IMG/VR virus record: IMGVR_UViG_3300023199_000127
Coordinates: 1-64,000 of that record
Strand: one strand, 5' to 3'
DNA: 64,000 bases
Source of the DNA: a virus
Below the pieces are notes generated by a model. It saw nothing but the letters and a program-made list of their open reading frames with translations, was not told the DNA's origin and did not search any database. Within the stretch, counting starts at the first letter, position 1; the number at the start of each line of letters is the position of its first letter. Shown here piece after piece: positions 30,603 through 51,702 of this stretch. A program made the position numbers and the translations under genes.

Positions 30603-32024
30603 ATGGCAACGAAAACCCTCGACAAGGCTCTGCCGGGGACCCAAGTTACGGTCAACGACAAGGGCTTGGCGATCTCCCCCGAGGTGGCGGGCAAGAAGCT
30701 CACCATCATGGGTACCACTACAAATGACGTCCTGACGCTCCGTGAGCCGACCCGCATTCGCGATGCTAAGCGCATCGCGACTGCGCTGGATCATGGTGAC
30801 GGCCGCCCCTCCGAGCTCTCGCTCGCGGTGGAGGCTGCTCTCCGTGCCGGCGCCGAGAACATCGAGGTGATCAAGATTGCCGATGCTTCCGGTGAGGACA
30901 TCGACAACTACAGCCCCGAAGACCGATTCGATGCACTTGAGGAGGCTTATGACGTCCTCAAGGTCGTGCCGGTTGATGTCGTCGTCCCTGTTGGCGCCAA
31001 GTTTGATGTGCTGCCCACGGGTGTCAACTCGAATGGCACCACGCGCAAGGCGTTCTGGAAGCAGCTGGGCGACTTCTGCTACCAGTCCACCAAGGAGGCC
31101 AACTCGGTGATCGGTGTCATTGCGACCCGCACCCCGAGTGAGCATGCCTATAACCAGAGCCTGTCCGGTGCACCCACTGGCGAGGCCGGTTGGCTCTTCG
31201 ATACCCCCGCCATTGCTCACATTACGGATTGGTCAAACTACCTGCAGGCACTCGGTGGCTATTCCGCCGAGCACTTCACGGACTATCTGGCCGGTTCCAA
31301 TGAGACCAGCCCTGGCGTCCTGGATTCGAACTACGATGGCTGGGCCCGTGACACCGGTGGCACGATTGCTGTCGATGAGAAGGGCAACAACGTAGACGGT
31401 GGTGCTCGAATCTCCGTCGTGGCTGTTGCTGCACGCATTCGCCACGACCGTGTGCGGACGCTGGGCAACAAGCTCGGCCTCTCCGCCCAGACGGACATGA
31501 ACACGGATGGCGCTGTCGAGTATGGCGCGATCCTGACCCGCCTGCCTGCTGAGGTTGGCGCCACGAACAAGACGATCCCGGGCGTGTTCGCTGCTCGCCA
31601 GCTTTCCGCCTCCATGGCCAAGAACCTGATGAACTTCCGCTACGTGACGATGGTTGACCGTAACCTCGGCTACGTGGTCGTGAAGGACGTCACGGGTGCC
31701 CACTATGCGTCGAACGAGACGAAGTCGGACTTCGTCCTCACGCAGGTCGTCCGCATTGTGGATGAGGCGATCGATATTGTCCGCGAGGCCGGCGAGGAGT
31801 TCATCTCCAAGCCCCTCAACGCGGCAAACATTGGCGCCATGGACAACGCTCTCCGCGAGTCGCTCAAGGGTATGCAGCGTGCTGGTGCCCTCAAGCGCTT
31901 CGATCTCGGCATCCTTGCGGACGCCGATGCGCAGGCCCTCGGTGAGCTCAACATCGACCTTACGCTGGTGCCGGCTGTCGAGCTGATCCAGATCAACACG
32001 ACCCTCTCCCTCGCGAAGGAGTAA
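30603..32024 (+). CDS. Contractile tail sheath protein, 473 aa
   Basis: GAGGAA lies 9 nt before ATG 30603. The N-terminus (ALPGTQVTVNDKGLAIS) and the end (LNIDLTLVPAVELIQINTTL) match the start and the conserved C-terminal strand through which sheath subunits knit together. IISKPLNAANI-like text (FISKPLNAANIGAMD) precedes it. The sheath contracts to drive the tube through the host envelope. High C-ending codon use fits a very abundant protein. The tube gene follows after 6 nt. Confidence 0.88.
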   Translation: MATKTLDKALPGTQVTVNDKGLAISPEVAGKKLTIMGTTTNDVLTLREPTRIRDAKRIATALDHGDGRPSELSLAVEAALRAGAENIEVIKIADASGEDIDNYSPEDRFDALEEAYDVLKVVPVDVVVPVGAKFDVLPTGVNSNGTTRKAFWKQLGDFCYQSTKEANSVIGVIATRTPSEHAYNQSLSGAPTGEAGWLFDTPAIAHITDWSNYLQALGGYSAEHFTDYLAGSNETSPGVLDSNYDGWARDTGGTIAVDEKGNNVDGGARISVVAVAARIRHDRVRTLGNKLGLSAQTDMNTDGAVEYGAILTRLPAEVGATNKTIPGVFAARQLSASMAKNLMNFRYVTMVDRNLGYVVVKDVTGAHYASNETKSDFVLTQVVRIVDEAIDIVREAGEEFISKPLNAANIGAMDNALRESLKGMQRAGALKRFDLGILADADAQALGELNIDLTLVPAVELIQINTTLSLAKE

Positions 32025-34942: not shown

Positions 34943-35705
34943 TTGGGACCTCCCCCGTGAAGTGAGGGAGCTGGTACCGCGACTCAAAAAGGACCATGAT
35001 GTCCTATACGTGGTGGAGCTCCAGAATGACACAGGGGAGGTCTATGCGATCTTCCGCCCAATGCGGAAGGAGGAGGTGCGTTACCTCGAAGAGAACGCAC
35101 CGTACCACGATGAGTGGTGGATGGAGGGATGGATTATCGGCCACACTTTGGTGTGGCCTGATCCACATGTTCTCGATGAATGGCTTGCTGGGACCGTTGA
35201 GTCGCTTGGTGACTCGATCATCGAGGCTTCCGGATGGTCTTCGGTCGAGGCAACCGTTGAGGGTATTCACCTCGCTAGGCAAGAGGCGACGTCACTGGAC
35301 TCTGCCATTCTCGCGTTTATCTGCAAGGCATTCCCGTCCATCCATCCGCGGGACCTCCAGAAAATGACCTTGCTCGAGACTCAGATCATGCTGGCCCGTG
35401 CAGAGATGATCCTGGGCCAGCCACTCGATCTGCAGATGTTCCTGGATCCGGAGGGGTACCAGAAGAGGCTGAAGCGCCAGCAGCGCTTCCAGCCGCCTGC
35501 CATGCTCCCGGATGATCCGGGTGCATTCGACACTCCGCCGGAGGCCATGCAGCGGCCTCGCCGGCCAACCCGCCCGCATCACAGCTATCTGCCCGATACT
35601 CCGATGGACGAGAAAGAAATGCTTTCTCCGGACGCAGCCACTAAACTTAGGAGTGGAGATTCCCTCCGAGATGAAATGGCTGCCCATCAGGACTTCCTTG
35701 GCTAA
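34929..35705 (+). CDS. Second tail-assembly-chaperone-like protein, 258 aa
   Basis: GTG start, 11 nt after the previous stop. Residues about 35-125 (YAIFRPMRKEEVRYLEENAP; SLGDSIIEASGWSS) align with the previous protein and resemble myophage tail chaperones, in which an FRP..R.EE motif is common. The C-terminal 80 residues are Pro/Arg-rich and disordered (PRRPTRPHHSY). The stop overlaps the ATG of the 1495-aa gene. T4 gp26 and gp51 are a known case of two related proteins with this role. Confidence 0.55.
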   Translation: MIRSPWDLPREVRELVPRLKKDHDVLYVVELQNDTGEVYAIFRPMRKEEVRYLEENAPYHDEWWMEGWIIGHTLVWPDPHVLDEWLAGTVESLGDSIIEASGWSSVEATVEGIHLARQEATSLDSAILAFICKAFPSIHPRDLQKMTLLETQIMLARAEMILGQPLDLQMFLDPEGYQKRLKRQQRFQPPAMLPDDPGAFDTPPEAMQRPRRPTRPHHSYLPDTPMDEKEMLSPDAATKLRSGDSLRDEMAAHQDFLG

Positions 35706-38700
35706 TGGCGATTGAACGAGAGAACCTCCAGAACGAGCGCGGGTACAACCCGTATCGTGACCAGATCCTGGGCCAGCGAGGGACAGATGAGCGCCATCCC
35801 GCCGAGACTCTGCGGGAAAATGAGGCTCAGACCAAGGCTCTGGAGATCCAGAAGGCCCAGAATCCGCTACTCCAGCGGGTGGCCCAAGTCGCCTTCATCA
35901 CCTCTGGCGTCTATATGCTGGGCCGTACGAGGGCCAGAGATGCCCTCAGGAGCGCCTTGGATGCTCTGGGGTACGCTGGGAGGTCTGGGCTCCGTGTCGC
36001 CCGTGAGGGCGCCAGGAGCGCCGTCAGAGGGGCTGTAGGATCCTTCCCGGAGACCAGGAGCCTAGAGAGAGCCTTCCATGGGGTCGATGACCCGGAGATT
36101 CGCAACCTCGAGCTGATCGATACGCTGGAGGGAATACTTAACTTTAGGCGAACAGCTCTAGATGAGAATGGGTTCGCAAGAGGGCTCAGGGCTTCTCGGG
36201 CTGGTGGGCCTGCTGGATCAACCTTTGACCAGATCGCCACTGAGCATGTGGCAGCGCGGTACAACCTCGACTCTCTCGAGGATCTGCGCCATGTGACTGT
36301 CGGTGACGTCATGGAGAACGCCAATCTGCAGAGGCAGATCGGCGAACGTCAGTTCCGCACGCTCAGTGAAGCCTCGGAGCTCGGTCTCATCAATGAGCGC
36401 ACGGTCCTGCACCGTAACCGCAACGTCCGAGGGCTGTACACGACGCCTGAGGGTTTCATTCAGGACACTCGATGGGCTACCGCCGGCAACGCACTCCGGG
36501 GCCTGTACACAGCCACCAGGAACTTCTCTGTTGCTGGCTTCCGGCCCGTTGAGTTGTTCGCTGGTATGGGCAAGGCTTTCACTCAGGGTGAATTCTTCGG
36601 TGAGCTGGGCGTTGGTACTGTCATCGGTCGTGGGCGTAAGATCACGGCACAGGACGGTATTAGCTTTGCCATGGGTGGCAACATCTATCGTCAGCAGCGT
36701 GGTGGGTTCCAGCATGCCGGTAGTGGCTTCAAGCTCTTCAGCAGTAAGGAAGGTCAGTCTGCTGGTCTGATGGAGTCATTCCAGGCCATCATGGGCATGC
36801 ACCCGTTGCAGTCTCATCGTGTGGCTCAGATTAGCCAAGCGGAAGCAGACGCTCATCCGGTAAGAGATTTCTGGCAACAGCTTCAGGACCTGGTGGGTGT
36901 TGGTCCTGGGTTCAAGACCAGACCACATGTTGCTGAGACGTTCGTAGTTTATCCAATGCGCCGGCGCCAAGCCGGGCGCATGGGCGGCGGATATGTGCCT
37001 TACTCCGAAGCTGGTGGTGCGCTAGCAGGTCGACAGGGTGTCGGGTTCGGCTACGTGTCCAGACGTGATCAGAGGCGTGGCTTCTTCGAGAAGGTAGTAA
37101 ACCAGCTACAGGGTCTCAATGAGAGTGATGCTGTTGCTGCGCGTGCAGATGAATCTCGCGGATTCATGGATCGTGTTGCACGAACCATGGGCGTGGATTC
37201 TGGCGATGAGCTCTCCGCTCTTTACGGTAACCAGCAACGTGGGGCTTTCCTGAGCCCTGCAGGCATGGCCGAGTTCCGACGCAGCGGTACTATCCGCGGT
37301 CAGTCCTTGGTCGTCCAGCGTCCTACTACTGCAGCATCCTATGGAACAAGGCCCGCACGCTTCCATACTGGAGAGGTAGGCGAAGCCTCATATGGCCGCG
37401 CCACCGGTCGCACCACAGTAAGGAACTACGTTGTCCACGATGGCGGTGTGCTGGGTAATGTCAACTTGGTTGGTACCTACATGACGACGCGTCTCAACAA
37501 CCTGTTGAGCGCGACTCTGAACTACGGTATCCGTCCCGGCTCCGGCTCGTACGGCTGGGTTGGGAACATAGCCAAGATCTATGGTGGCTATCAGGCCATC
37601 AACATGGGCTTGGACTACCTGTCGTACGCCGACTATCTCATGGAGGAGTACACGGGTGTCAGTCCCAAGAAGTGGGGACTTAAGGGTTACATTGGTCTCC
37701 GCACTGGTCTCCAGAAGGCCCGCGAGGTGACAGGTGTGACCTCTGCGGCTGACTGGATTGAAGACACGATGCCGGGTTCCGTCGACAGCCCGTTGTCTCA
37801 GGCGTTGAGATTTGCTGGTCCCATGGCAGCTACGTTCCTTAGAGGACGTGGTCCAGGCCTGTCAGGGCTTGCTGCCGGTACCTTCCTTGGCTACGGTGAC
37901 ATCCAGAAGAGTTCTGAGGATGTCTATGATGAGCTGATTGGTGACAAGGATGTAGCGTATCGCCGTGGCAGGTGGTGGATGCTGGGCCGGCAGCCGTTCG
38001 GTGGAGGCCCGGTCGAATTCTATGGCAAGTCCTGGATTGCACGACAGCTGTCCGACTACCAGTACACGGACTCTCTGTATGGATCAAAGCAGGAGTATTG
38101 GCGTCATGTGAACAAGACTCCGACTCCCTCAAACCTCTTCAACTTGTTTGAGAGTCCTGAGGAATACCTGAGCCAGAAACACTACTATACGCGCCCCTAT
38201 CCGGTTGATGCAGACGGAAGTCCTGCACGTATGTCAGAAGCAATCTTCAATGAGCTCCCTGAGGAACGCGATGTGATCCCGGATGCTGGTGCGCGACTGG
38301 GCCTACAAGATGGTGGTACTCACCACGATAGACGTGCCATCGTTGGTCCGTACGGCGCTGGTGGGAAGCTTGGCTACTACGCTGATAAGATCTCTGAGCT
38401 GAGCGGCATCTACAAGTTTGCTCTGTGGGATCTGCCTGGCTTCTCCAACAACACCGATAATCGCCGGCTGGCATCGCCCGAGGCGATGGCCAGCAGGTCT
38501 CGAGAGTTCTACGACAACTCGATGGGTGGCATGCTTGGTCTCTCTGAGGCCTATCGCCGATTCCTGCCCGATGAGAAGTTCAATAAGGACTATAACCCGA
38601 TCCCCAACCAGATGCCGGATTGGCTACCTGGTATTCGGAGCTCCTTTGAGAAGGACCGGCGCTACTACATGGACTTCACTCTGGGTGATCCGTACACCAA

Positions 38701-40192
38701 GGTGAAGCAAGGTGAGGCTCGTCTACCTGGTGAAGGCTATGAGCGCATGCATCGCCTCCATTCGGGTGCCCACGGTACCTACGATGCCATGGATCGCTTT
38801 CTGATCCTTGCTGACGTCGCACCGTACTCGCAGTCGTATCAGCACTACAAGGCCATTGTGAGCTCGTGGGCTAAGGCCGGTGTGCTTGATTCCTATTGGT
38901 CAGAGAAGTTTGACACTGCTCAGAAGCAGGTCAAGGACAAGCTACAGCAGCACGATTTTACACACCGCCGTTTTACTGGACTGGTTACCGCACCCGAAGA
39001 GGAAATGGAGCGGGTAGAGCAGTGGAATCCCCTCCGACGTAGTGTTGCTGCAGCTTGGGAAGTTGCAACTCACGATGTAGTTTCGCGAGCTGCTGTGGCT
39101 GTTCCGTTTGCTGGTGGCATCCTTGGTAATAAGCTTGCTCCTACCAGATCTCCCATCGAGGCATATCAGAAGTGGGAGTTGTACGGTGAAGACTTCGCTG
39201 ATTGGCGCACACCGTACAAGAGTTTCATTCGTCCGATGGCCCATGAACTCACTGCATCAGATCCTGCCACTGCCACATTTGGTGGTGCTATGCTTGGTGT
39301 CTTTGGCGCCAACCCTCTTTCTCGTCTCGTGTTCTCTGGCGTAGGTGCAGCTCTGGCAGGGACCGCCAGCACGGCACGTGCTGTCGGTACCGGGGAGATG
39401 ACGGGTGGCTATATTCCCAGCCATCGCGAAGAGGAGCGTGAAGCCAAGGAGTATCTGGATAAGCTGAAGTACGTGAAGTATCGCCGTCTCCAGCAGATTG
39501 CTGACGCACAGGGCGACCGTACTCTGGCCTACCAGTACAAGAAGATGGCCGGCCGCACTTTGACTGGCATGGACTACTCTTTGCCTCAGGCACACTTCCA
39601 GGCTGCTGCTCGAGCAGCCATGGGTAAGCGTGAGCGTGGCTACTTTGATGCGTTCACCGAGGTGACGGATCCGGAATCCCGGAAGCGCATTCTAGAGATG
39701 GTGCCTGAGTATATGAAGCAGGTGTATGTAGCCGCGTGGTCCAAGCAGGGCGATCCCAGGATGAGGGCTGCCATGCGAGAGATGCAGCAGAGCGGAGATG
39801 CACGTGCCGCAGAATACTTCCGCAATGTGCGTAAGCCCGACAGCACGTGGGCTGGCTGGCACCCCTCGGTATCCCAGTCTGATATCGCCATCAGACTAGC
39901 AAATCAGGAGGCTTTGGATATTCATCGATTCAACCTCTGGGAGGAACAGGTCAGCGAGAGCGAAGCCAGATTCCCTGATCTGCACGTTCCGGTCGATCTG
40001 TCCGATATCCAGAGAACGCCCAGTATGCTGCGCCATGCCGCCCTGGACACCAGTAGGAAACAGTATCGGGCTGCTAGTTTCACTGGAGGCGGGTTTACTG
40101 CTGCAGGTTTGCACCCTGAGGGTATAGAATTGGATGTGATCCCTGACACTGTCACTGAAGCGTTGAGATACGCTGGGAGTCTATTGCAGTAA
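35705..40192 (+). CDS. Giant tail-region protein, possible tape measure or ejected protein, 1495 aa
   Basis: The first of three giant genes, at the place of the tape measure. It is not a simple long coiled coil: it is Gly/Arg/Tyr-rich with scattered hydrophobic segments (VAQVAFITSGVYMLG, about 60-74; AAVAVPFAGGILG, about 1130-1142; LSRLVFSGVGAALAG, about 1203-1217), resembling ejected inner proteins. PYTKVKQGEARLPGEGYE (about 997-1014) is a distinctive conserved-looking motif of unknown meaning. TAATG overlaps at both ends. It could be the tape measure, a delivered protein, or both. Confidence 0.5.
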   Translation: MAIERENLQNERGYNPYRDQILGQRGTDERHPAETLRENEAQTKALEIQKAQNPLLQRVAQVAFITSGVYMLGRTRARDALRSALDALGYAGRSGLRVAREGARSAVRGAVGSFPETRSLERAFHGVDDPEIRNLELIDTLEGILNFRRTALDENGFARGLRASRAGGPAGSTFDQIATEHVAARYNLDSLEDLRHVTVGDVMENANLQRQIGERQFRTLSEASELGLINERTVLHRNRNVRGLYTTPEGFIQDTRWATAGNALRGLYTATRNFSVAGFRPVELFAGMGKAFTQGEFFGELGVGTVIGRGRKITAQDGISFAMGGNIYRQQRGGFQHAGSGFKLFSSKEGQSAGLMESFQAIMGMHPLQSHRVAQISQAEADAHPVRDFWQQLQDLVGVGPGFKTRPHVAETFVVYPMRRRQAGRMGGGYVPYSEAGGALAGRQGVGFGYVSRRDQRRGFFEKVVNQLQGLNESDAVAARADESRGFMDRVARTMGVDSGDELSALYGNQQRGAFLSPAGMAEFRRSGTIRGQSLVVQRPTTAASYGTRPARFHTGEVGEASYGRATGRTTVRNYVVHDGGVLGNVNLVGTYMTTRLNNLLSATLNYGIRPGSGSYGWVGNIAKIYGGYQAINMGLDYLSYADYLMEEYTGVSPKKWGLKGYIGLRTGLQKAREVTGVTSAADWIEDTMPGSVDSPLSQALRFAGPMAATFLRGRGPGLSGLAAGTFLGYGDIQKSSEDVYDELIGDKDVAYRRGRWWMLGRQPFGGGPVEFYGKSWIARQLSDYQYTDSLYGSKQEYWRHVNKTPTPSNLFNLFESPEEYLSQKHYYTRPYPVDADGSPARMSEAIFNELPEERDVIPDAGARLGLQDGGTHHDRRAIVGPYGAGGKLGYYADKISELSGIYKFALWDLPGFSNNTDNRRLASPEAMASRSREFYDNSMGGMLGLSEAYRRFLPDEKFNKDYNPIPNQMPDWLPGIRSSFEKDRRYYMDFTLGDPYTKVKQGEARLPGEGYERMHRLHSGAHGTYDAMDRFLILADVAPYSQSYQHYKAIVSSWAKAGVLDSYWSEKFDTAQKQVKDKLQQHDFTHRRFTGLVTAPEEEMERVEQWNPLRRSVAAAWEVATHDVVSRAAVAVPFAGGILGNKLAPTRSPIEAYQKWELYGEDFADWRTPYKSFIRPMAHELTASDPATATFGGAMLGVFGANPLSRLVFSGVGAALAGTASTARAVGTGEMTGGYIPSHREEEREAKEYLDKLKYVKYRRLQQIADAQGDRTLAYQYKKMAGRTLTGMDYSLPQAHFQAAARAAMGKRERGYFDAFTEVTDPESRKRILEMVPEYMKQVYVAAWSKQGDPRMRAAMREMQQSGDARAAEYFRNVRKPDSTWAGWHPSVSQSDIAIRLANQEALDIHRFNLWEEQVSESEARFPDLHVPVDLSDIQRTPSMLRHAALDTSRKQYRAASFTGGGFTAAGLHPEGIELDVIPDTVTEALRYAGSLLQ

Positions 40193-43100
40193 TGAGAGAC
40201 GCCGGCTACGGCTACTATTCCTCCAACCTTGCCAACTATCCCGGCCTCGTTGGTCTCCAGGAAGCAGTTCATTCCACCAACTATGCCCCTGTGCGTAGCA
40301 AGGGCGGTTTGAACATGCTGATTAAGAGACATCGTGAGCTCGGCATGGGCATGGGCGCAACCAAGAACGTTGTGCGTATTGTGAGGGCTCTCGAAGATGC
40401 TGGTGTCCACGATATTGGTATCTCCGTACATGCCAAGGGTGGTGTTAGCCTACGTCTACGACAGGGCCAGATTGCCATCCCGGTCTGGGATAAGGCTCGT
40501 GGTGTTGTGCATATGGGCGCAGATACCATGGCTGGCGCCATGCATCTGGTGCCCACAGGGTCCCGACTCAAGAAGATGGACGTGGCTGATGCATTCGTCC
40601 ATCGTTTCCTGAGCCGTATGCCTAGCACTAGCAAGAAGTATGGCGGTGGTGGATCCGTCAAGCTAGGTAGTGGTAACATGATACGCATTAAGGCGATGGA
40701 TCCTGTGCGTAGCGTAGACGCTCAGGTGAAGGTCCTACAGGACCTGAGCCGTACCGCAAAGACAGAATGGATGCAGACTCTGGCCACACAGAATGGTGAG
40801 AGCCAGCTATCCAAGGCCTACTATCTGCAGAACCGCATCCAGATGGATCTTACAGATATGCCCGAGCTGCAACAGCAGGCAGAGCGTATCGGTGATATGG
40901 TCGCGGCTTATCAGAAGGGTGGCGATCCCACAAAGAAGATTCTCCTGAACGACGAACTCGAGCGAAAGATCCATACGGAAATTCTCGCGTTCAAGAATCG
41001 TCTTCAGGAGGTAGCACCGGATGCGCAGCTGACTGGTATCAAGCCTGAGGCTTTCTTGCCCTTCCTGCGTGAGAATAAGACTGCCAACCGAGTGACCATG
41101 TCTACTCTGGGTCCGCAGATGATGGCCTCCATGTACGAGGAGGATGAGGTTCGTAAGAGCCTGCATCAGATGGTCCTGGCTCGAGTGATGCACCAGGACG
41201 ACATCATGCACGATCCGCAGGTGGCCATGGGCCGAGCAGTGGCTCGTGAATCACTGGGGCGCCGGCGCATCGTTCCTATCGTCACCGAGCATGGGTACAT
41301 GGATCAGATGCGCCAGATGGCAGAACTGCGTGCATTGCGTCAGGGACGCGCTGTGCGTCCTGGCGATATGTACCAGCTGACTACACGTATGCCCTTGACG
41401 GTTGGTCTGATGGATCCTGGCCAGTCGCAGATGGCATACAAGTTCCTTCGGGACCATATCGACGATTCTGGAGTTCTGCTTGGTTCTGAGACTGCACGTA
41501 CCGTGGCAGGCATGGAGTATCGGCACCAGAGCAAGGTGGGCAACGTTCAGACGTTTAAGGCCATTGGGCCTATGGCGGCCCACATCAACGCTTTGAGTGA
41601 AGACTCTCATCATCATATTGGCCTGATCGGATCGGACCTGGCTGCCGAAGGCATGCCGGTCCTCGGAACAGATGCCAGTAGGTTCGTGGGTACCCAGGGT
41701 GCGAAGTCTCTGCGTATGCGTGATCGTATCCTTTTGGGCATTGACCAGGAGACGGGTCGCCAGATCACTATGGGAGCTGGTGACCGTCTAGAGTCCATCA
41801 CTCGTAAGGGTGACCAGTACCACTTCAACATCAAGCGTGCACGTGGTGGCAGTGGTATGGGCGCCGGCTTGCTGGTGGACACACGTCGTGTAGGCGTTAC
41901 TGGCTTTATCAGTCCCGAGGTTGGGGTAGACATTGCGGGTGCTGCTGGAGACTTCGGGATGAAGTTTGGTAGCAATCGGGCCCACACATACCGTCAGTAT
42001 GTAGGTCACGTCTTCACCAGACTGGAGCGATCCGCTCTGGACCAGAAGATGCAGCGCAACGTGATGCGCCAAGTTGGCAAGGCTCTGGGAGCCGATGTCA
42101 ATTTCAAGCAGATCGGTAGCCGCGGCAGGGCATTCGTTACGCTTGCAGCCGGTATGCCTTCTATTGACCGGCTGGTCGAAGCAGCCATGTCCAATGACAG
42201 TAGTACTCTACTGAAGGACAAGGTTGTCATGGCAGCTCTGGCCGACAAGAGCATGACTGAGGCTCAGCGCCAGTCTGTAATCAATGCCTTCCGTGTCGAG
42301 AGTACGCCGATGTCCAAGGTCATGAGATCTATGGGCCATGCCGTGAGTGAGCAACAGGCTGCCGAACTAGAGCGTGCCGGTGCTCGCATGTACAAGTTTG
42401 AGGGCACCCCGGTCCAGTCTCGTCATGTGGATATGCCTTCGAAACAGATGGGCCGCTATGGCATGAACTATACGCTGGCTGATCTCAAACTGTTTGAGAC
42501 TCAGATGGCTGGCACTCAGGGTCATGTCGGTAGAGCGTATCGCACGCTCCATGACTTCCTGCGTCCTGATATCAAGACCTCCGGTGTGGGCTCAGATGCT
42601 TACCGCTTCCTCGGTCAGTTCTATGAGGGTATCGATGGTGCCCATGCAGGACTAATGAAGGCCGATACCTACTCACTGCAGCAGATCGCACAGATGAAGA
42701 ATGTGCCGATCCAGTCCACCGCACAGTATCCGGGTGGTGTGATCAAGGAGAGTGAGGTTGCCGGTTCGCTAATTAGCGGCACCGGCAACAACCTGCGTAA
42801 GGGTGGCTTCTATGTGAAGCTCAAGAAGGGCGATCATATGTCTATCGCTCTCATGGACAGGTTTGGAGCCGGCAAGGGTGGTGTGGCTGCAGTGCGGACT
42901 GATACCGTGTTCATTCCGGGCATGGAGTTCTTCCGCGGGTCAGCTGGACTTGAAGGTTTCAATGAGCTCATCATGCAGGGTGGTTCCAGGTTGGATGGCT
43001 CTGGTGGTATCGAGCGCAAGCTTTTCGGCGACTACATGAATGTAGTTAAGACACTGGAGGATTATGCATCTGGCTCTGCAGATGTGACTGCGCTACAGGA

Positions 43101-45087
43101 AAAGCTGAACCGCTTGTACCTCGGCATGTCCGAAGCTATGGTGGGCAAGGACTCTGTAATCAAGCGTTACTTTCAGCCTGACGATATGATCGGGATGACT
43201 GGGCGAACTGTCACCTCTCCCTTCTTCAACCAGAAGGCAGAGGTGGCTACGGTTGGTATCTATCGCGGCGCACTAAAGCGCGCTGCCAAGAACGGAGATC
43301 CCCGTGCTGTTCAGCTGTTGAAGCGAGCCAAGACCGGCAAGGATATCTACGGTACTGTGTTGGCTTATCCCGGTACCGATGCTGCGCACCACGCTGTGGT
43401 GCGTGTGAAGCTGATGGACAAGCAGCACATCGTTGGGAGTGACTTGGCCAAGCAGGTCGGCAATGAAGGTCTTGAGAACCTGATCTTTACCTCGCCCACG
43501 TTGCGTGCTGCCACCGAGCGAGACCTCGACTTCGACTGGAACTACTTCCGGTTCATCACAGGTGATGAAGCTTCACAGGCTGCATCAGTCGTGCATGGTG
43601 AAACAGTACGTCGACTGGACCCGCTACACGCCTTCATTAACGCTGCTCCTGGGGGTGCTACCCTACGTCAACAGGTCTCCGGCATGACACAGGCCCTCGA
43701 GGAACAGATCGGAAAGGATATCTCCGGCTTCAGTCTCGGTGAACTAGCACAGCGTGAGCAATCCCTCATTGAGGGCTCCGCTGTTCTACGCCAGAAGCTT
43801 AGCTCTCCGCTGACATACTCGTCGTTTGTCAGACAGCAGACTCTGGCTGCGTATATCGGCGAAGACCGTGGTGCCGACCTGGTGATGCGTGCACTGGGCG
43901 CAGCGGACAATAGTCCGACCGCCCAGGCTGTGACAGGCGTGAAGGAGATGCTTGCTGATCCCAAGTTCAGGGATACGTTCTCCAATGCCTGGACTGCCAC
44001 ATACTATGCCGCCCTGAAGAAGGGTGCCGCTGATGAGTCCATCGCCACTATGGTGGGTGATGTACGCAGGCTCACACAGGTTGCCTCCGAGGGCGGACGT
44101 GCTGGGCAGCGAGCACAGGGCCAGCTTGCTGAGAAGATGTTTGGGATCTTCCAGAGATCGACGCCTGGCGAGAATATCCTGATGCGTGTGCTCAATCAGT
44201 CCGGACTCACGGAGGGGGAGCACTACCACGTCGGAGCTGCCGGTGAGGCAGCCCAAGGCGCCATTGAACAGATTGGCGGCAAGGTGTATGTGACACAGCC
44301 TGGTCGTGATCTGCTGATGGAGAGATACTTCAACCCCATGGCAGAAATGCTGGGGAACCTGCAGCACATCGAAGATGCGACTAAGGAGACTGCTCTGTGG
44401 CACGCTCTTCGTCCTCTTGCTGGCCAGACTGCACCTGATTATTCACGCGCCCAGGAAACCATGGGTGTCCTCGACCTGTTGGGTCGAGGCATGAAGGATG
44501 GTGCTTCCGCGGAGCATGTTGGTGATGCCGCGCGTGATATGCAGGCCATGATGGATGCGCTTCAGGACACTGATCCCTTGCTGCACAGGGAAATGATGGA
44601 GACTGCAGCAGAGGCTGGTGGCTACCAGGCTATGGCGGATGGTGCCAGAGCAGCAGCCGGCCGCGGGAAGGATATTTTCAATCGCATCTGGAGCAGCAGG
44701 TGGGGCAAGATCGGGACGATCGGTGCCAGCGCTGTTCTGGGCCTTGAACTCTTCGGTGGCCTGGTGGGCGATGATACTCCCCCGCCTGTGATGGCCGGCA
44801 ATGGGGCTCCTATGCCTCCCACGCCTGCTCTACAGGGCGTTGCCCAGAAGCAGCATCCGCAGCCGTATATCCCTCCCAGGCCGGCACGCATCCAGCGTCC
44901 GGCCTCTATGAGGACCCATGTTTCTGCCACCATGAGGGACACAGCCCCCTCATATGGGCAGACCCGTGGGCACAATAGTTCCTTTCCCTCTCACGGACAA
45001 ATCGATTATCCTGAGAGGGACAGGGGCGAGGTTAACCCCTGGGTGATGCGGAATTATATGAGTCAGCGCATGGTGTCGAGCTACTAG
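40192..45087 (+). CDS. Candidate single-chain two-barrel RNA polymerase, virion-delivered, 1631 aa
   Basis: Two motifs recall the double-psi barrels of multisubunit RNA polymerase. At 879-901, KGDHM...RFGAGKGGVAAV resembles beta K-P-G-D-K-M-x-x-R-H-G-N-K-G (candidate lysines K879, K895). At 1097-1127, SPTLRAATERDLDFD then ten residues and EASQAA match, with identical spacing, beta-prime P-x3-AA-x3-DFDGD-x10-EA; the Asp triad is D1111, D1113, D1115. Upstream GTVLAYPGTDAAHHAV (1054-1069) could parallel the NRAPTLHR segment. The DxDxD without Gly and the single-chain order recall crAss-like phage gp66 and YonO. The C-terminus has a hydrophobic helix (about 1500-1520) and a Pro-rich tail. Matches were made by eye. 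Confidence 0.55.
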   Translation: MRDAGYGYYSSNLANYPGLVGLQEAVHSTNYAPVRSKGGLNMLIKRHRELGMGMGATKNVVRIVRALEDAGVHDIGISVHAKGGVSLRLRQGQIAIPVWDKARGVVHMGADTMAGAMHLVPTGSRLKKMDVADAFVHRFLSRMPSTSKKYGGGGSVKLGSGNMIRIKAMDPVRSVDAQVKVLQDLSRTAKTEWMQTLATQNGESQLSKAYYLQNRIQMDLTDMPELQQQAERIGDMVAAYQKGGDPTKKILLNDELERKIHTEILAFKNRLQEVAPDAQLTGIKPEAFLPFLRENKTANRVTMSTLGPQMMASMYEEDEVRKSLHQMVLARVMHQDDIMHDPQVAMGRAVARESLGRRRIVPIVTEHGYMDQMRQMAELRALRQGRAVRPGDMYQLTTRMPLTVGLMDPGQSQMAYKFLRDHIDDSGVLLGSETARTVAGMEYRHQSKVGNVQTFKAIGPMAAHINALSEDSHHHIGLIGSDLAAEGMPVLGTDASRFVGTQGAKSLRMRDRILLGIDQETGRQITMGAGDRLESITRKGDQYHFNIKRARGGSGMGAGLLVDTRRVGVTGFISPEVGVDIAGAAGDFGMKFGSNRAHTYRQYVGHVFTRLERSALDQKMQRNVMRQVGKALGADVNFKQIGSRGRAFVTLAAGMPSIDRLVEAAMSNDSSTLLKDKVVMAALADKSMTEAQRQSVINAFRVESTPMSKVMRSMGHAVSEQQAAELERAGARMYKFEGTPVQSRHVDMPSKQMGRYGMNYTLADLKLFETQMAGTQGHVGRAYRTLHDFLRPDIKTSGVGSDAYRFLGQFYEGIDGAHAGLMKADTYSLQQIAQMKNVPIQSTAQYPGGVIKESEVAGSLISGTGNNLRKGGFYVKLKKGDHMSIALMDRFGAGKGGVAAVRTDTVFIPGMEFFRGSAGLEGFNELIMQGGSRLDGSGGIERKLFGDYMNVVKTLEDYASGSADVTALQEKLNRLYLGMSEAMVGKDSVIKRYFQPDDMIGMTGRTVTSPFFNQKAEVATVGIYRGALKRAAKNGDPRAVQLLKRAKTGKDIYGTVLAYPGTDAAHHAVVRVKLMDKQHIVGSDLAKQVGNEGLENLIFTSPTLRAATERDLDFDWNYFRFITGDEASQAASVVHGETVRRLDPLHAFINAAPGGATLRQQVSGMTQALEEQIGKDISGFSLGELAQREQSLIEGSAVLRQKLSSPLTYSSFVRQQTLAAYIGEDRGADLVMRALGAADNSPTAQAVTGVKEMLADPKFRDTFSNAWTATYYAALKKGAADESIATMVGDVRRLTQVASEGGRAGQRAQGQLAEKMFGIFQRSTPGENILMRVLNQSGLTEGEHYHVGAAGEAAQGAIEQIGGKVYVTQPGRDLLMERYFNPMAEMLGNLQHIEDATKETALWHALRPLAGQTAPDYSRAQETMGVLDLLGRGMKDGASAEHVGDAARDMQAMMDALQDTDPLLHREMMETAAEAGGYQAMADGARAAAGRGKDIFNRIWSSRWGKIGTIGASAVLGLELFGGLVGDDTPPPVMAGNGAPMPPTPALQGVAQKQHPQPYIPPRPARIQRPASMRTHVSATMRDTAPSYGQTRGHNSSFPSHGQIDYPERDRGEVNPWVMRNYMSQRMVSSY

Positions 45088-48000
45088 ATGGCTAAGACGA
45101 TTAACGAGCGTCTAGGGTCCTTGTCTATCTTGGACCCGGAGACCGGGAATAGCATCCCGGTTAGCCTGGACCTGATCCAGCGGTATCTTCTGGATGAGGA
45201 CAACCTCATGGTCATCATTGGCAGAGCTAGAGCAGCAGCAGCTGCCAAGGAGCTCGCTGATATTGAGGCTGGCGTGGATCCCACGGCGGCTGCCAATGAG
45301 CTCAGAGCCAACCTGGACGCCCTGGATTCTGTGTCCGAAACTCTGTTCAACCGCAATCGCTCCATCAAGAATGATGAGACGCGCCGGCGTACAATCTCCG
45401 ACGCTGCCCGATCCTTTGAGGATCGTACCTATTCTTATGCCAAGCCTGCAGTCATGAGGATTGGCATGATTCCCCTTGAGGATGGTCTGGTCAAGAATGG
45501 CGCCCAGGCTATCGAAGTGGAAGACGATTACGATATTCGTCGAGTGGGATCGCTGCGCTCTGACACTGATGCAGTGGTTCGCGGCAAGTCCCAACACACG
45601 GAGATTCGGATCAGCCTGACCTTCCCTGATTTGGATTCTGTCAACACTGTGTTCCGTCCTCTACTGGCCCAGTGTCGTGCCGCGCCGGTTATCAGTATTG
45701 AGTCTGATCTCCTTGTTGATGTGCTCATTAACAAGTTCGCTACACCAGAGCTGCTGAATGCACTCCTACAGGTGGGTGCCGCCAAGACCAAGACGGATGA
45801 AGATGATCCGCTGGAGAAGCTTACCGAAGAGAGCCGTGAGAGCCTGGACAAGCTCAAGGATCTGCTCTCCTCTGGTGATTCCGCGACCATGTATGCTGTG
45901 GCACGTGCTCGACAGAAGGCCACACAGGAAGCCAGTAAGCCGAATGCTAATCCCACTGTGGAACAGGCACGTCCTTTCGACGTGCCGGATTATGGGATCG
46001 CCATTCCTGTGGCTCTCCGTGAGGTCCATGTGTCAACGAAGAAAAGCGGCACCCATGCCCTGGATGCCACCTTTATCTTTGTGCGCATCAACGAGTCTGC
46101 CTTTATGCAGTCTGGTCTTCGCTGGCGTGACTCCAACGGTTGGCCCACCTATGACGTGACCAAGTGCGATACTCTGTATCGGTACTTCCATAAGACCTAC
46201 CTGACCCCGTCAGACCAGAAGGATTCTCAAACCTATATGGCTCCCATCCCCAAGTCGGATGCGGAAGTCCAGGCCCCCATGATCCTGCGATGGGAGAACT
46301 ACCATACGGGGGAAGAGAAGAGTATTGATCTAAGCGACTTTGAGTGCGTGATCCATCAAATGAATGTTGGGTGGTCGAACAAGCTTTGCATGATGCCTCT
46401 CATCGGCCAGCACAATCCAGCTGTGCAGTATCTCGGTACTTCCAACGGAGTGGCCAAGGTACAGATCATTACCAAGGATAGACAGCTGGTGCGCACCCTG
46501 CACCAGCTGAAGGATGAACAAGACGAGATCTCTCGCCGGCACAGTGCACTGGATCGTGATGATCGGATTATCATCGAGAATGGTGTCCTAAACATGACTG
46601 GCATGCGTGAGTTTGTTATCCAGTCCTTGACCACAACGACTGATCCGCGCAGTCCTGAGCTTATCTACTTGAACATCACATTTGTGGAGTCCAAGTACAC
46701 CCTTCGTGAGCGTGAACAGGTTACGCTCTTCCAGGATCACTACGACAAGGATCATCTGAAGGCGTTGTGGAGGTTCATGTTCAAGACCATGAACGAGGCG
46801 ATGGACAAGACACTACGACGTCAGGAATGGAGCCAGACCGAGCGAGAGGTCATGTCCACTCTCTTTGGTAGCTCATTCCTTTACAGGAATGTGACTGGCG
46901 CAGCGGTGGACTTCTCCGCTGTGCGTGCCGACATTGAAAAGGGCACTGGATTTTTCGGCACAAGGCTGGAGAGCGGTAGGACCCCTGGTGAAGCCTACAG
47001 GCTCCAGGACTCCTTCCGGAAGGCAACAGCTCCCGATAACGGAATGCCTGGTATTCTTAACAACTCTGTGATGGCTGCAGCTATCTCCCACTTCATCACC
47101 TCTGGTGGAACCGACTCCAGTCGGATCCGCTGGTTGAAGAATAGAGAAAGAGAAGCAGAGAAGTCGGTCGAGGATCCTGCCAGTTGGTTGAGCTGGGTGA
47201 ATTTCACCAGGAACAACCAGGTCACTCGTGTGAAGAACGAGCTCCAGGAACAGGATCTGACCGTCATCAAATACATCTTTGACTGGCCGACCCAGGCAGA
47301 TCTTAATGGAGCTCGCGCCACCATGCTGGCCTGGCTTGACGAGCTGCAGACCCACGAGGTGGGTCCGGAGGTGGACAAGGGCTCCAGCATGCTGTTCCGC
47401 GTGTTCATGCTGGCCCGAGATCATCTACGGCTTGATGCCCCCGCATTCAAGCAGCAGTTCTGGGACTCTGTTCTAGAGGTGCTCTCCAACCGTCAGTCTG
47501 ATGCTGCTGTGCAGGGTAAGAAGTGGCTCTCTGAGGATCTCGCCCAGGCCCAGTCTCTTCTTATTGGTGTGCTTGCCAGTGGAGTGGCTGATAGGTGGGA
47601 GGGCTTTGACCAGAGCCGATTCTTGAGCCAGAAGAAGTTCAAGGCACTGGACGCCAACGGGCCGGACGAGCCGTCTGACAACTACCCGGACATGTATCTT
47701 CCGACCTATGCAGATCTGTTCAGTAACCCGCCCCTCGGGTTGGTACTTGGTCTGCCTATCCCGGTTGTACAACAGGTAGATGCCAGTCAGGCAAAGTATG
47801 CCCCGCTGCGGGGACAGAGTCGCAAGGGTGATCCGCAGGCTCTCTGGATCAACTTTGCTCCGCGATACAAGGATCTTGGTAAGCGCCCTCCGTTCGAGGT
47901 TCGGGCTGCCTTTGGAAAGCCGGAAGAGGCCAGCAATGCTATTGCTCGTACGATTAATGATCGCGTCGAGCCTGGGTTCTTCTACTGGAAGGGTTCCTGG

Positions 48001-51000
48001 AAGGATGAGCTGGGAGCGGTAGAGAAGTACCGCAATCAGATGGAGCAGATCCGCGATGAGGCCAAGAGCCACATCATCCAACTCGATCACAGTATCAGTG
48101 CCGACGGTGCTTTGCTCGAAGGATCGCTTCGTAACATGATCGACTACCTGATGGGAGAGGAGTACCCGAGTGCCAACTCGGGTACTGTGCAAGTCCTGAG
48201 TAACCGACAGCAGGCCAAGGATCTGATCCGTAAGCTGGATCGAGTCAATGCTGAGGTACCGGTTATCAACCTGATTGACTCGGAGGGTCGATTGGTTGCA
48301 TATCTGCGCCATGCTCCCCAGTCGAATGATCGTGGCAGGACGCGTCACTTCGAGCTTGTCTCCTTTAAGGGTGGTCCTCTGAAAATCCGCAACCCCTTCA
48401 ATAACTCTGTGTTGGACCACGATGAGATGTTGAAGCCGGGTCAGATCCAGGAAGTGGTTAACCAGATCAAGGATGACCACTTCTCCATGCAGCGTGCGTA
48501 CCCCACGTATCGCGTATACGCTATTGAGGAGGATCGGGAACAGCTCATCTACTCCGATGACTTCTATGGTGTGAATTGTGTTTCCAGCATTGAAATCCAC
48601 CACTCCAAGCGCAATGCATCTTTGGCAATCCTGAGGATTACGAACACCAGCGGTCAGTTTGAGAACGATCAATTCCTACCGTTCGCAGAAGAGGGTAACT
48701 ACGAGGTCAATGCTGACGACGAAGGCGAACGCTTCTTTAGGCGTTTCCGGTTCCGCTCTGGGACGCTGATCCAGATCCGCATGGGCTATACCGGCAAGCC
48801 CACCGAACTGGACATTGTCTTCTCTGGTCGTGTGGTCGAGGTACAGCATGGTCCTGTAATTCAACTGATCTGTCAGGGTCACCGTACCGATCTCCTCCAG
48901 GAGATCGAGTACGCCAATACCAATAAGGATCCCTACCGCATCCTGGAGGATTGTTTCAAGAAGATTGGCAATGCTCCCAGCCTGGGTCGTACGGTGAAGA
49001 TGGGCCATATTAACCGCACGATGATCAGAGACTTCCTTGGCGAAAGAGCGGCTAAGCAAGTGACCTGGTGGGGTAAATTGTGGCGTCACGAGGTCAACTC
49101 CCACTTGAGGAATGTCTATGTGCACTCCAACTCTCAGGTGGTTGGTGGCTGGTTTGATTTCATTGATCGTGGGATTACCGACCAGTATCTCGAGGGTATT
49201 GGGCAGAAGGTGGTGCGCTTCTTCAATGATGTTCCGGGTGTGGAGCTGTTGATCCCGGATGCTGCCTTCCCTGCATGGGTGGTACCGCTGCAGCCGTTCT
49301 GGGACATGATTCAGGAAATGGTTCGCCATCGTCCTGGCAATATCGCGTACGTGGTGCCGTGGGAGCAGGATGGGACTCTTTTCTTTGGGAAGCCCACAAC
49401 TCCTTATCTTGCAGAGAACCCTCCGACTGCAGAACGACGTGCATACAACCGCCTGGATCGGGTTGTGCGCAAACTGTCTCTGCAGGACATCTCTGCCATT
49501 ATCCTTGAGAGATTTCTCACCTCACGCTTCTATAAGAACCGTCCTCTGTTGATGGATGCACTCAGCAATCGTACGAAGCTTCGTGAGAAGAATGCCAGTG
49601 TCAATAGCTTGGCAGAGCTGGATCGTCTTACGTTCAGCTGCTATGGGCATATGACTTCGTTCTCGTCCCCGGGGCTCCGGGATGAGTCACTGCGTGGGAA
49701 TAATAGACTGCACTCTCTCGACTTCACCTCTGAGTGGGACTATCTCCTTAAGTGGAATCCCGGTCTGGTGAAGCTGGCCACCTCCTTCTTCTTCGGCATG
49801 GAGTGGCAGCCGGTCTGGCCCAATGGGTTTGAGGGGGACTGGAAGCTTTGTTTCCGTGGGCTCATGCCGCCCTTGCAGGCCGGCGGTAGCAAGGAGCTCT
49901 CTCGTTCTGCAGAAGACTGGAAGAGCCAGTGGGTAGACTCGGATAACTCCTCACTGAATGCGATGCGTGTACCGACCTCATTCCTCGATACGAAGGCTCA
50001 AGCTAACGCCATGATTCGAGTATTGGAGAAGCAGCAGATTGAGCTACAGGCTGCCCGAGACTCAATTAATGAGATGCGTAGTCAGGGTCGTATCCCTGCA
50101 AGGATCCTGGACCAGCTTGAAGAGCAGGTCCAGGAGCGCAGAGAGGTATTCGAGCAGTTTGGTGTGCTGACTGCTGAACAGCGTGCCGCACAGATCGCCC
50201 GAGTTAGAGATGCTTTGGGTGGCTTCTCGCTACCTGGTGCATCTGGTCGCCCTGACCACTATGAGGAGCTGGGGACGATCGTGGAGTTCCGTGCTAACCA
50301 TTATCGGATGTTCATCCATGCCCTGGCTAACTTCGTCAGGGACCAGATTGGCGGAGAGACTACTCTGGGCAGACAGATCCGCAAGGAGGCTGTTACTAAG
50401 GCCATGGATGATCATCGCAGCTACATGCTGCCGCCGGGGTGGAAGCAGTTCCGCGACTATCACGTTCTCACTTCTGAGAACGATATCATCGAGAACTCCA
50501 TTACTGCCTCCATGCAGCAGATGCACAACGTTGTGCTCATCCGCCATCCGGAGGCTGGCGTCGAGCTGGTTTCTGGAGATGAGCTACAGGAGGACTCGGA
50601 GGTCGAGGATCTAAATAACACCGATGGCCAGCTGGCTCGTAAGCGTGTCATGTTCCAGGAAGACACCACTTGGAATAGCTTCCCAAAGGATGGGGGACTT
50701 CCCTTCCGTCCTGCTCTCGGCAAGGAGCACCGCAAGCTTCTGGTGAAGGTGGAGAACAACGCCTTTGATCAGGAGTCGGCTTTCCGTTGCCTGATCTCTA
50801 ATATGCAGCAGGCGCTGCAGCCCATGTACCGTGGCTACATCACCTTCATTGGCCGCCACATGAAGCCGCACGATGTCATCCATATCAAGGATGACATCTC
50901 CGATATGATTGGTCCGGTGGAAGTGGATGAGATTACACACCACTTCACTCCTGAAGGTGGCTGGGTATCCTCAGTGGTGCCGCATGCTCTGGTCCATGCA

Positions 51001-51702
51001 AACGATATTGTTTCTCGTGTACAGCACAATGCTATCGTTAGCTGGTTTGGAGATGCAGCTTCCTGGTACGAAAAGAACTGGTGGTGGATTGAGCTCGGCA
51101 TGCTAGTGGCTGCACCGCTCACTGGCGGTGCTAGCGTGGTTGGTGGTGCTGCCCTGCGTGGCCTGGCAAAGGTTGGTATCAAGACCGGTCTGCGAAAGGG
51201 GCTACGTGGCACTGTCGCACGCATTGGAAACAGGACCCTGCGTCAGGCAATGATCAAGGCCATTACCCGTAAGGCCGTCAGGTCCAAGACTACGGTCGCC
51301 GGCGCCCTCAATGTTATGGCTCGTAACCCCCATACCCTATTCGGTACTATCGGAAGAACGATGGGTATGGGAGTGCGCACCGTGAACCGACTCAGTATCC
51401 CCGCCTATCTGGGAGCCGTCGGCTACAACACCTTCGTCAGTACGCCCCATATCAAGGCTAAGTTTGGTGATGTCGAAGTGCCGGTTGAGATTCAGCCGCT
51501 CATGCTCAAGGGGCGGCCGTACACCGCCGGCCTGGAGTATGGCTATGAAGATGTGTATTCCTTCTGGGAAAAGGGGCGTGGCTGGATCAAGGATGTCTGG
51601 TCTGATACCAAGGAGGTTGCCGAAAACCTCTTCAGATTCCGTGGGTATGAGCCTCGGAGTCTTGGTGAGTCTCTGTATAATCAGAGTCTAAAGAGTGACT
51701 AA
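45088..51702 (+). CDS. Giant baseplate-hub-like protein, 2204 aa
   Basis: Residues about 1160-1280 resemble a hub or late-control-D-type domain: EIHHSKRNASLAILRITN, GTLIQIRMGYTGK, DIVFSGRVVEVQHGPVIQLI. The N-terminal 550 residues are beta-rich with long charged helices; a second beta domain spans about 380-560. Near the C-terminus Gly/Ala-rich hydrophobic stretches (LVAAPLTGGASVVGGAALRG, about 2004-2023) suggest membrane contact. It lies between the giant polymerase-like gene and the baseplate genes, so it is probably the central hub with fused functions. No lysozyme motif was recognised. Confidence 0.55.
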   Translation: MAKTINERLGSLSILDPETGNSIPVSLDLIQRYLLDEDNLMVIIGRARAAAAAKELADIEAGVDPTAAANELRANLDALDSVSETLFNRNRSIKNDETRRRTISDAARSFEDRTYSYAKPAVMRIGMIPLEDGLVKNGAQAIEVEDDYDIRRVGSLRSDTDAVVRGKSQHTEIRISLTFPDLDSVNTVFRPLLAQCRAAPVISIESDLLVDVLINKFATPELLNALLQVGAAKTKTDEDDPLEKLTEESRESLDKLKDLLSSGDSATMYAVARARQKATQEASKPNANPTVEQARPFDVPDYGIAIPVALREVHVSTKKSGTHALDATFIFVRINESAFMQSGLRWRDSNGWPTYDVTKCDTLYRYFHKTYLTPSDQKDSQTYMAPIPKSDAEVQAPMILRWENYHTGEEKSIDLSDFECVIHQMNVGWSNKLCMMPLIGQHNPAVQYLGTSNGVAKVQIITKDRQLVRTLHQLKDEQDEISRRHSALDRDDRIIIENGVLNMTGMREFVIQSLTTTTDPRSPELIYLNITFVESKYTLREREQVTLFQDHYDKDHLKALWRFMFKTMNEAMDKTLRRQEWSQTEREVMSTLFGSSFLYRNVTGAAVDFSAVRADIEKGTGFFGTRLESGRTPGEAYRLQDSFRKATAPDNGMPGILNNSVMAAAISHFITSGGTDSSRIRWLKNREREAEKSVEDPASWLSWVNFTRNNQVTRVKNELQEQDLTVIKYIFDWPTQADLNGARATMLAWLDELQTHEVGPEVDKGSSMLFRVFMLARDHLRLDAPAFKQQFWDSVLEVLSNRQSDAAVQGKKWLSEDLAQAQSLLIGVLASGVADRWEGFDQSRFLSQKKFKALDANGPDEPSDNYPDMYLPTYADLFSNPPLGLVLGLPIPVVQQVDASQAKYAPLRGQSRKGDPQALWINFAPRYKDLGKRPPFEVRAAFGKPEEASNAIARTINDRVEPGFFYWKGSWKDELGAVEKYRNQMEQIRDEAKSHIIQLDHSISADGALLEGSLRNMIDYLMGEEYPSANSGTVQVLSNRQQAKDLIRKLDRVNAEVPVINLIDSEGRLVAYLRHAPQSNDRGRTRHFELVSFKGGPLKIRNPFNNSVLDHDEMLKPGQIQEVVNQIKDDHFSMQRAYPTYRVYAIEEDREQLIYSDDFYGVNCVSSIEIHHSKRNASLAILRITNTSGQFENDQFLPFAEEGNYEVNADDEGERFFRRFRFRSGTLIQIRMGYTGKPTELDIVFSGRVVEVQHGPVIQLICQGHRTDLLQEIEYANTNKDPYRILEDCFKKIGNAPSLGRTVKMGHINRTMIRDFLGERAAKQVTWWGKLWRHEVNSHLRNVYVHSNSQVVGGWFDFIDRGITDQYLEGIGQKVVRFFNDVPGVELLIPDAAFPAWVVPLQPFWDMIQEMVRHRPGNIAYVVPWEQDGTLFFGKPTTPYLAENPPTAERRAYNRLDRVVRKLSLQDISAIILERFLTSRFYKNRPLLMDALSNRTKLREKNASVNSLAELDRLTFSCYGHMTSFSSPGLRDESLRGNNRLHSLDFTSEWDYLLKWNPGLVKLATSFFFGMEWQPVWPNGFEGDWKLCFRGLMPPLQAGGSKELSRSAEDWKSQWVDSDNSSLNAMRVPTSFLDTKAQANAMIRVLEKQQIELQAARDSINEMRSQGRIPARILDQLEEQVQERREVFEQFGVLTAEQRAAQIARVRDALGGFSLPGASGRPDHYEELGTIVEFRANHYRMFIHALANFVRDQIGGETTLGRQIRKEAVTKAMDDHRSYMLPPGWKQFRDYHVLTSENDIIENSITASMQQMHNVVLIRHPEAGVELVSGDELQEDSEVEDLNNTDGQLARKRVMFQEDTTWNSFPKDGGLPFRPALGKEHRKLLVKVENNAFDQESAFRCLISNMQQALQPMYRGYITFIGRHMKPHDVIHIKDDISDMIGPVEVDEITHHFTPEGGWVSSVVPHALVHANDIVSRVQHNAIVSWFGDAASWYEKNWWWIELGMLVAAPLTGGASVVGGAALRGLAKVGIKTGLRKGLRGTVARIGNRTLRQAMIKAITRKAVRSKTTVAGALNVMARNPHTLFGTIGRTMGMGVRTVNRLSIPAYLGAVGYNTFVSTPHIKAKFGDVEVPVEIQPLMLKGRPYTAGLEYGYEDVYSFWEKGRGWIKDVWSDTKEVAENLFRFRGYEPRSLGESLYNQSLKSD

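Follow-up and report, generated by a model that had tools for sequence, protein, structure and literature searches.

The 1631-aa open reading frame at positions 40192–45087 (+ strand) of the window, i.e., the 64,000-nt stretch of DNA analysed here, taken from the start of a virus record of 180,792 bp, quite probably encodes a virion-carried, single-chain RNA polymerase (RNAP) of the two-barrel (double-psi beta-barrel, DPBB) type. The gene occupies a slot of the tail module beside a tape-measure-like gene and belongs to a very diverged family that probably folds like the catalytic half of the cellular RNA polymerase, its product being a putative tail-carried RNAP of this virus. The initial annotation had assigned an RNAP to a giant myophage gene situated at the tape-measure/hub position, and this holds for the beta-prime-type (DPBB-A) region, which was recognised via the profiles of the relatives, Pfam and a predicted structure.

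Genomic setting of the tail-slot gene

Genes for terminase, portal, major capsid, tail sheath, baseplate wedge and hub/endolysin were recognised in the window. The presence of the tail sheath gene (30603–32024, + strand; phrog_16991 tail sheath, E=1.3e-33), together with the other structural genes, indicates a contractile-tailed phage (myophage). Upstream of the 1631-aa gene lies a tape-measure-like tail gene, W1 (35705–40192, + strand, 1495 aa), homologous to ME3 gp035, KLEB27-3 gp031/gp033 and MTATph1 CDS0026, and downstream a baseplate hub/endolysin-type gene, W3 (45088–51702, + strand, 2204 aa), which matches PHROG 20474 endolysin (E=1.4e-34) and is homologous to the KLEB27-3 gp035 baseplate protein. 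The 3' end of W1 overlaps the start codon of the 1631-aa gene, the start of the frame coinciding with the stop of the upstream gene, and the frame ends 1 base before the next gene.

Portal and hub matches point to Bacillus phage KLEB27-3, Moorella phage MTATph1 and Acinetobacter phage ME3, and ME3 genes are annotated as homologous to genes of Bacillus phage 0305phi8-36; the source phage is an uncultured myophage of the 0305phi8-36 lineage. The order tape-measure-like gene, slot gene, hub is kept across the contigs of this lineage, with homologous flanking genes. In 0305phi8-36 itself the slot corresponds to orf146, which adjoins the hub gene gp147 and was assigned as tape measure (PMC2147016). 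The slot gene of KLEB27-3, gp034, is annotated as 'structural protein', and this annotation, taken by itself, gives indirect support to packaging of the slot protein in the virion.

Two further features of these genomes were observed. The tape-measure-like gene of KLEB27-3 (L002:27826-34979) is present in two parts, gp031 and gp033, with the gene of gp032, a small homing-endonuclease-like protein, between them, pointing to a possible intron. Within the window, a 905-aa gene located upstream of the terminase (7551–10268) matched a nuclease-like PHROG that bears the name CRISPR/Cas-associated (E=7.6e-12).

Direct searches of the window protein against Pfam, PHROGs, PDB, phages and viral contigs did not retrieve any significant match. 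A weak PDB match with CsrA (E=0.0084) was judged to be due to chance and rejected. BLAST did not link the window protein with its positional orthologues, and profiles were used instead. An AlphaFold model of the window protein, built from 5 sequences, was uninformative (pLDDT 34.7), and Foldseek found no structural match for it. A C-terminal transmembrane helix, followed by a Pro-rich tail, was predicted by hydropathy at residues 1507–1525 (nt 44710–44766, + strand); helix and Pro-rich C-terminus resemble those of several relatives and align weakly with the C-terminus of the relatives of clusters c4 and c5 (c4+c5).

RNA polymerase features of the positional orthologues

Slot loci were gathered via the upstream gene W1, with a first alignment (A1) leading to 51 viral contigs and a second one to 3 more; added searches for further close relatives gave few new contigs, and a scan of genome contigs none. 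A D-x-D-x-D motif, mostly in the form [GA]DxDGD, was found 330–620 aa before the C-terminus in 37 of 42 slot proteins, against a mean of 2.2 and a maximum of 7 in 300 shuffles; the 42 sequences fall in related clusters and are not independent events, the count per cluster being 10 of 14 groups. The motif is absent from the slot genes of L043, L049 (0305phi8-36), L053 and L056, and lies slightly farther from the C-terminus in L058 and L059. The slot gene of MTATph1 (L003:30512-37868) is apparently broken by an insertion sequence, consisting of a transposase and an AAA-type helper (CDS0028-0029), and carries no DxDxD. In 0305phi8-36 gp146 (L049:14161-21771), the C-terminal region weakly common to the family occurs without the triad, a possible case of polymerase loss, indicating that the polymerase would be dispensable in some members of the lineage.

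Relatives of clusters c4 and c5 carry the arrangement R-[YF]-P-T...Q...ADxDGD. In bacterial beta-prime (E. coli) the corresponding arrangement is NRAPTLHR...NADFDGD. Pfam Rpb1 domain 2 (PF00623, Rpb1_2) matched 3 of 12 relatives (best E=3.7e-4), and KLEB27-3 gp034 gave E=0.015 with this domain. When 29 whole contigs were searched, PF00623 returned six matches, five of which were tail-slot frames and the sixth the non-virion RNAP (nvRNAP) of the source contig. The slot match of L044 exceeds the curated Rpb1_2 cut-off when neighbouring matches in the frame are counted. Against the PDB, the sole match of the c4+c5 profile was the beta-prime of the phiKZ nvRNAP (E=0.023), and the 60 matches listed for an extended alignment, which took in c3 and the source phage's own beta-prime, were largest subunits of RNAPs (best E=1.2e-5) except for one unrelated entry.

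The AlphaFold model of the relative L038 had a mean pLDDT of 64, with much of the core at 70–90. All of the 50 PDB matches listed for this model were RNAP beta-prime/Rpb1-type chains with a probability of 1.00, the best being the AR9 nvRNAP (E=4e-6); TM-scores were low because only the beta-prime core of approximately 250 residues aligns. Against BFVD, rank 2 was taken by the second segment (C-terminal half) of a large, uncharacterised protein from ME3, which would fit the slot protein gp036 of this phage; viral RNAPs made up most of the other matches.

In some members an N-terminal DnaQ-like exonuclease domain appears to be fused to the RNAP-like part, as judged from weak RNase_T matches in MTATph1 CDS0027 (L003:30512-34441, E=5.4e-5) and in L038 (L038:13427-17149, E=3.1e-4). 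For KLEB27-3 (L002:35003-42307) an N-terminal exonuclease is suggested just by similarity to the MTATph1 protein, and in the window protein Pfam did not find an RNase_T-type exonuclease domain.

Assignment of the window protein and alternative readings

The strings on which the initial annotation was built were all found in the 1631-aa frame, with KGDHM at residue 879, RFGAGKGG at 890–897, SPTLRAATERDLDFD at 1101–1115 and EASQAA at 1126–1131. The beta-prime-like spacing P-x3-AA-x3-DxDxD-x10-EA is real and occurred in 0 of 5000 shuffles, the pattern having been picked post hoc, after the sequence was seen; its flanking elements P-x3-AA and EA are not kept in the nearest relatives. A DxDxD occurs somewhere in 24.5% of composition-preserving shuffles of the 1631-aa protein, so that within the window protein alone the motif would be weak evidence, becoming strong across the relatives. 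Indeed, D1111-L-D1113-F-D1115 (nt 43522–43536, + strand), the predicted Mg2+ triad of a beta-prime-type DPBB-A, lines up with the triad of relatives that match RNAP in their DPBB-A region, as expected for a DxDxD triad of the two-barrel RNAP superfamily. Loss of the triad in close homologues had been named as an argument against the annotation; the four closest relatives retain every Asp of the triad without variation, though in this five-sequence alignment (A5) the surrounding sequence is just 17–20% identical.

By hhalign, the window protein aligned to c1, its nearest cluster, over residues 912–1123 (E=0.0018), with DLDFD in register with DLDKD, and to c4+c5 over residues 1017–1125 (E=0.0018), with DLDFD in register with ADxDGD. 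These alignments point to a beta-prime-like region at residues 912–1126 (nt 42925–43569, + strand), extending from a switch-2-like segment to DPBB-A. Within this region, A1058-Y-P-G1061 (nt 43363–43374, + strand) aligns to RYPT of c4/c5 and to REPA of c1, thus taking the position of the beta-prime RxPT motif with the Arg replaced, and a Phe is found at the Gly of DxDGD, DxDFD being present also in L010 and L045.

Scored together with the other large ORFs of its contig (74 in all), the window gene ranked first with the c1 profile (score 38.8), first with c2+c3 (34.3) and second with c4+c5 (39.3), where it was beaten solely by the contig's own beta-prime (E=2.4e-7, triads in register). The maximum score of the shuffled and reversed null was 24.4 where tested; the c2+c3 alignment covers residues 903–959 of the window protein, outside the triad. 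The window protein is connected with its relatives at a modest level (E about 0.002), and the sequence-based case for the window protein belonging to the slot RNAP family is good but not overwhelming.

Both catalytic signatures had initially been reported in one chain, KGDHM...RFGAGKGG (residues 879–897; nt 42826–42882, + strand) being read as the catalytic lysine motif of beta. The beta-prime triad stands, whereas this string, conserved neither in A5 nor in the wider c1 alignment, was rejected as a catalytic motif. By our reading of the alignments, residues 879–897 would instead correspond to a beta-prime-type element, the counterpart segments being 'GYWLELP...IDKIFIPF' in L038 and 'GAWIQLP...INRVRVPP' in the phage's own beta-prime, and the c5 hairpin facing them reading G-[YF]-W-x-E-L-P...I-x-x-I-F-I-P. 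We infer that a beta-type barrel must lie upstream of residues 879–897. The upstream half of c4/c5 relatives contains a pair of near-invariant lysines, which may represent the catalytic lysines of beta, and a conserved GHRE segment, possibly equivalent to its RFGEME region. The beta half of the relatives matched neither PDB entries nor the phage's own beta-like protein; the order of the elements and the two near-invariant lysines of the relatives would suggest a DPBB-B half with two lysines.

The alternative that survives best, though unlikely, is that the gene descends from an RNA polymerase, has lost catalysis and now encodes a structural tail/tape-measure component. This is what could be expected from the very high divergence, from the replaced Arg of RxPT and Gly of DxDGD, from DPBB-B lysines that were not identified in the window protein and from slot members, including 0305phi8-36 gp146, that are without the triad, but it does not account for the invariance of all three Asp, at such low identity, across the window protein and the four relatives closest to it. 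That the DxDxD of the window protein arose by chance in an ordinary minor tail or tape-measure protein, the polymerases being confined to its relatives, is improbable. The frequency of DxDxD in shuffled sequences and the absence of a significant stand-alone match agree with this explanation, but the gene lies in the same slot, with the triad at the same distance from the C-terminus and in register in two independent profile alignments, and it reached the top rank among the 74 ORFs with scores well above the shuffled null.

Proposed role, second polymerase and known systems

According to the virion polymerase model that we favour, the RNAP core would take up approximately the C-terminal two thirds of the protein, with D1111/D1113/D1115 binding Mg2+ in a beta-prime-type DPBB-A, and the single C-terminal membrane-type helix may serve as an anchor. 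The protein would sit in or extend through the tail close to the tape measure, enter the cell together with the DNA and transcribe the first genes, including those for a split non-virion RNAP, which would then take over, as in Thermus phage P23-45. A tail role of a two-barrel enzyme other than early transcription, such as DNA pulling by transcription, or priming/processing of the entering DNA with an exonuclease-like domain, is highly improbable, since, in spite of the weak RNase_T-type matches in L038 and MTATph1 CDS0027 and of a second RNAP available for transcription, Pfam finds no exonuclease-like domain in the window protein and in P23-45, which encodes an nvRNAP as well, the pre-early genes are transcribed by the tail-carried RNAP (PMC10770324).

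Outside the window, two adjacent genes on the − strand code for a beta-like protein (150923–152695, 590 aa; PF00562 E=8.8e-22, GDKVTTRFGTKGVV) and a beta-prime-like protein (153015–154700, 561 aa; PF00623 E=1e-4, HPLLFEQLGADCDGD), which probably form a split non-virion RNAP. No match to PF00562 was found in the relatives with long contigs, and a PF05183 (QDE-1-type) gene of 1130–1470 aa was found in seven long-contig relatives, including 0305phi8-36, one of the seven being below the cut-off. This distribution indicates that the tail-slot polymerase is retained across lineages that differ in their second polymerase; non-detection of a second RNAP in the other relatives may reflect a lack of sensitivity. 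No shared early-promoter motif emerged from a search for repeats at the right end, which returned tandem or chance repeats only. A repeat array with a 15-bp period (L072:6079-6546) and a 22-bp tandem repeat, TGCTCTATGGACAGCTACC (L072:11225-11334), were observed near the right end of the contig.

With less confidence than for the gene itself, we lean towards the view that a single-chain RNAP of ancient divergence is a fixed component of the tail module, beside the tape measure, throughout the 0305phi8-36-like lineage (dozens of contigs), with a second, non-virion RNAP that varies, being split beta/beta-prime, QDE-1-type or none detected. In the literature found, no RNAP is reported from the tail slot of myophages of the 0305phi8-36 type; some members may already be listed in the supplementary two-barrel survey of PMC10770324. 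If this lineage-wide view is true, tail-coupled transcription during DNA entry would be an old and common strategy and not a peculiarity of a Thermus siphophage. Tape-measure-linked virion RNAPs are documented, in the literature found, for one group of Thermus siphophages. Host-independent early transcription would be extended to many large phages, in which the gene is usually labelled hypothetical or structural, and very diverged two-barrel polymerases would be added to the RNAP tree. Transcription of the incoming genome by a tail protein would, moreover, become directly testable in the cultured relatives KLEB27-3 and ME3.

The nearest precedent, absent from the initial annotation, is the tape-measure-fused virion RNAP of P23-45 (PMC10770324), and the best reading is that the window enzyme would work like it, but in contractile-tailed phages. 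Like the proposed window enzyme, P23-45 gp96 is a one-chain two-barrel RNAP that forms part of a giant protein from the tape-measure region of the tail, and its phage encodes an nvRNAP too. P23-45, however, is a siphophage whose 5002-aa tape measure carries the RNAP N-terminally (PMC10770324), whereas the window phage is a myophage with the RNAP region C-terminal in a separate 1.6-kaa gene beside the tape-measure-like gene. At the sequence level, hhalign to gp96 gave E values of 0.45–0.5 for both the window protein and c4+c5, which do not support a relation, and profile comparison with P23-45 gp64 gave no significant match.

The filing of the enzyme with YonO and gp66 was not upheld, hhalign of the window protein and of the clusters to gp66 being not significant and PF05183 having no match in the contig. 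Gp66 of the crAss-like phage phi14:2, YonO and the QDE-1-type enzymes are single-chain two-barrel RNAPs, as proposed here, and gp66 shares a non-Gly residue in the triad (DFDID); in the relatives, PF05183 marks a gene other than the slot gene. The sole RNAP described for 0305phi8-36 is the QDE-1-type orf99, a different gene (PMC2147016). Its gp146 shares the slot position, being followed by the hub gene gp147; it has a C-terminus that aligns weakly to the family and lacks DxDxD. By both profile and fold, the nearest solved structures to the slot family are the nvRNAP beta-prime of AR9 and phiKZ. Phages of the phiKZ/AR9 type have two RNAPs, one of them packaged, as proposed here; their RNAPs are split into several subunits, whereas the slot protein is one chain, encoded in the tape-measure/hub order.
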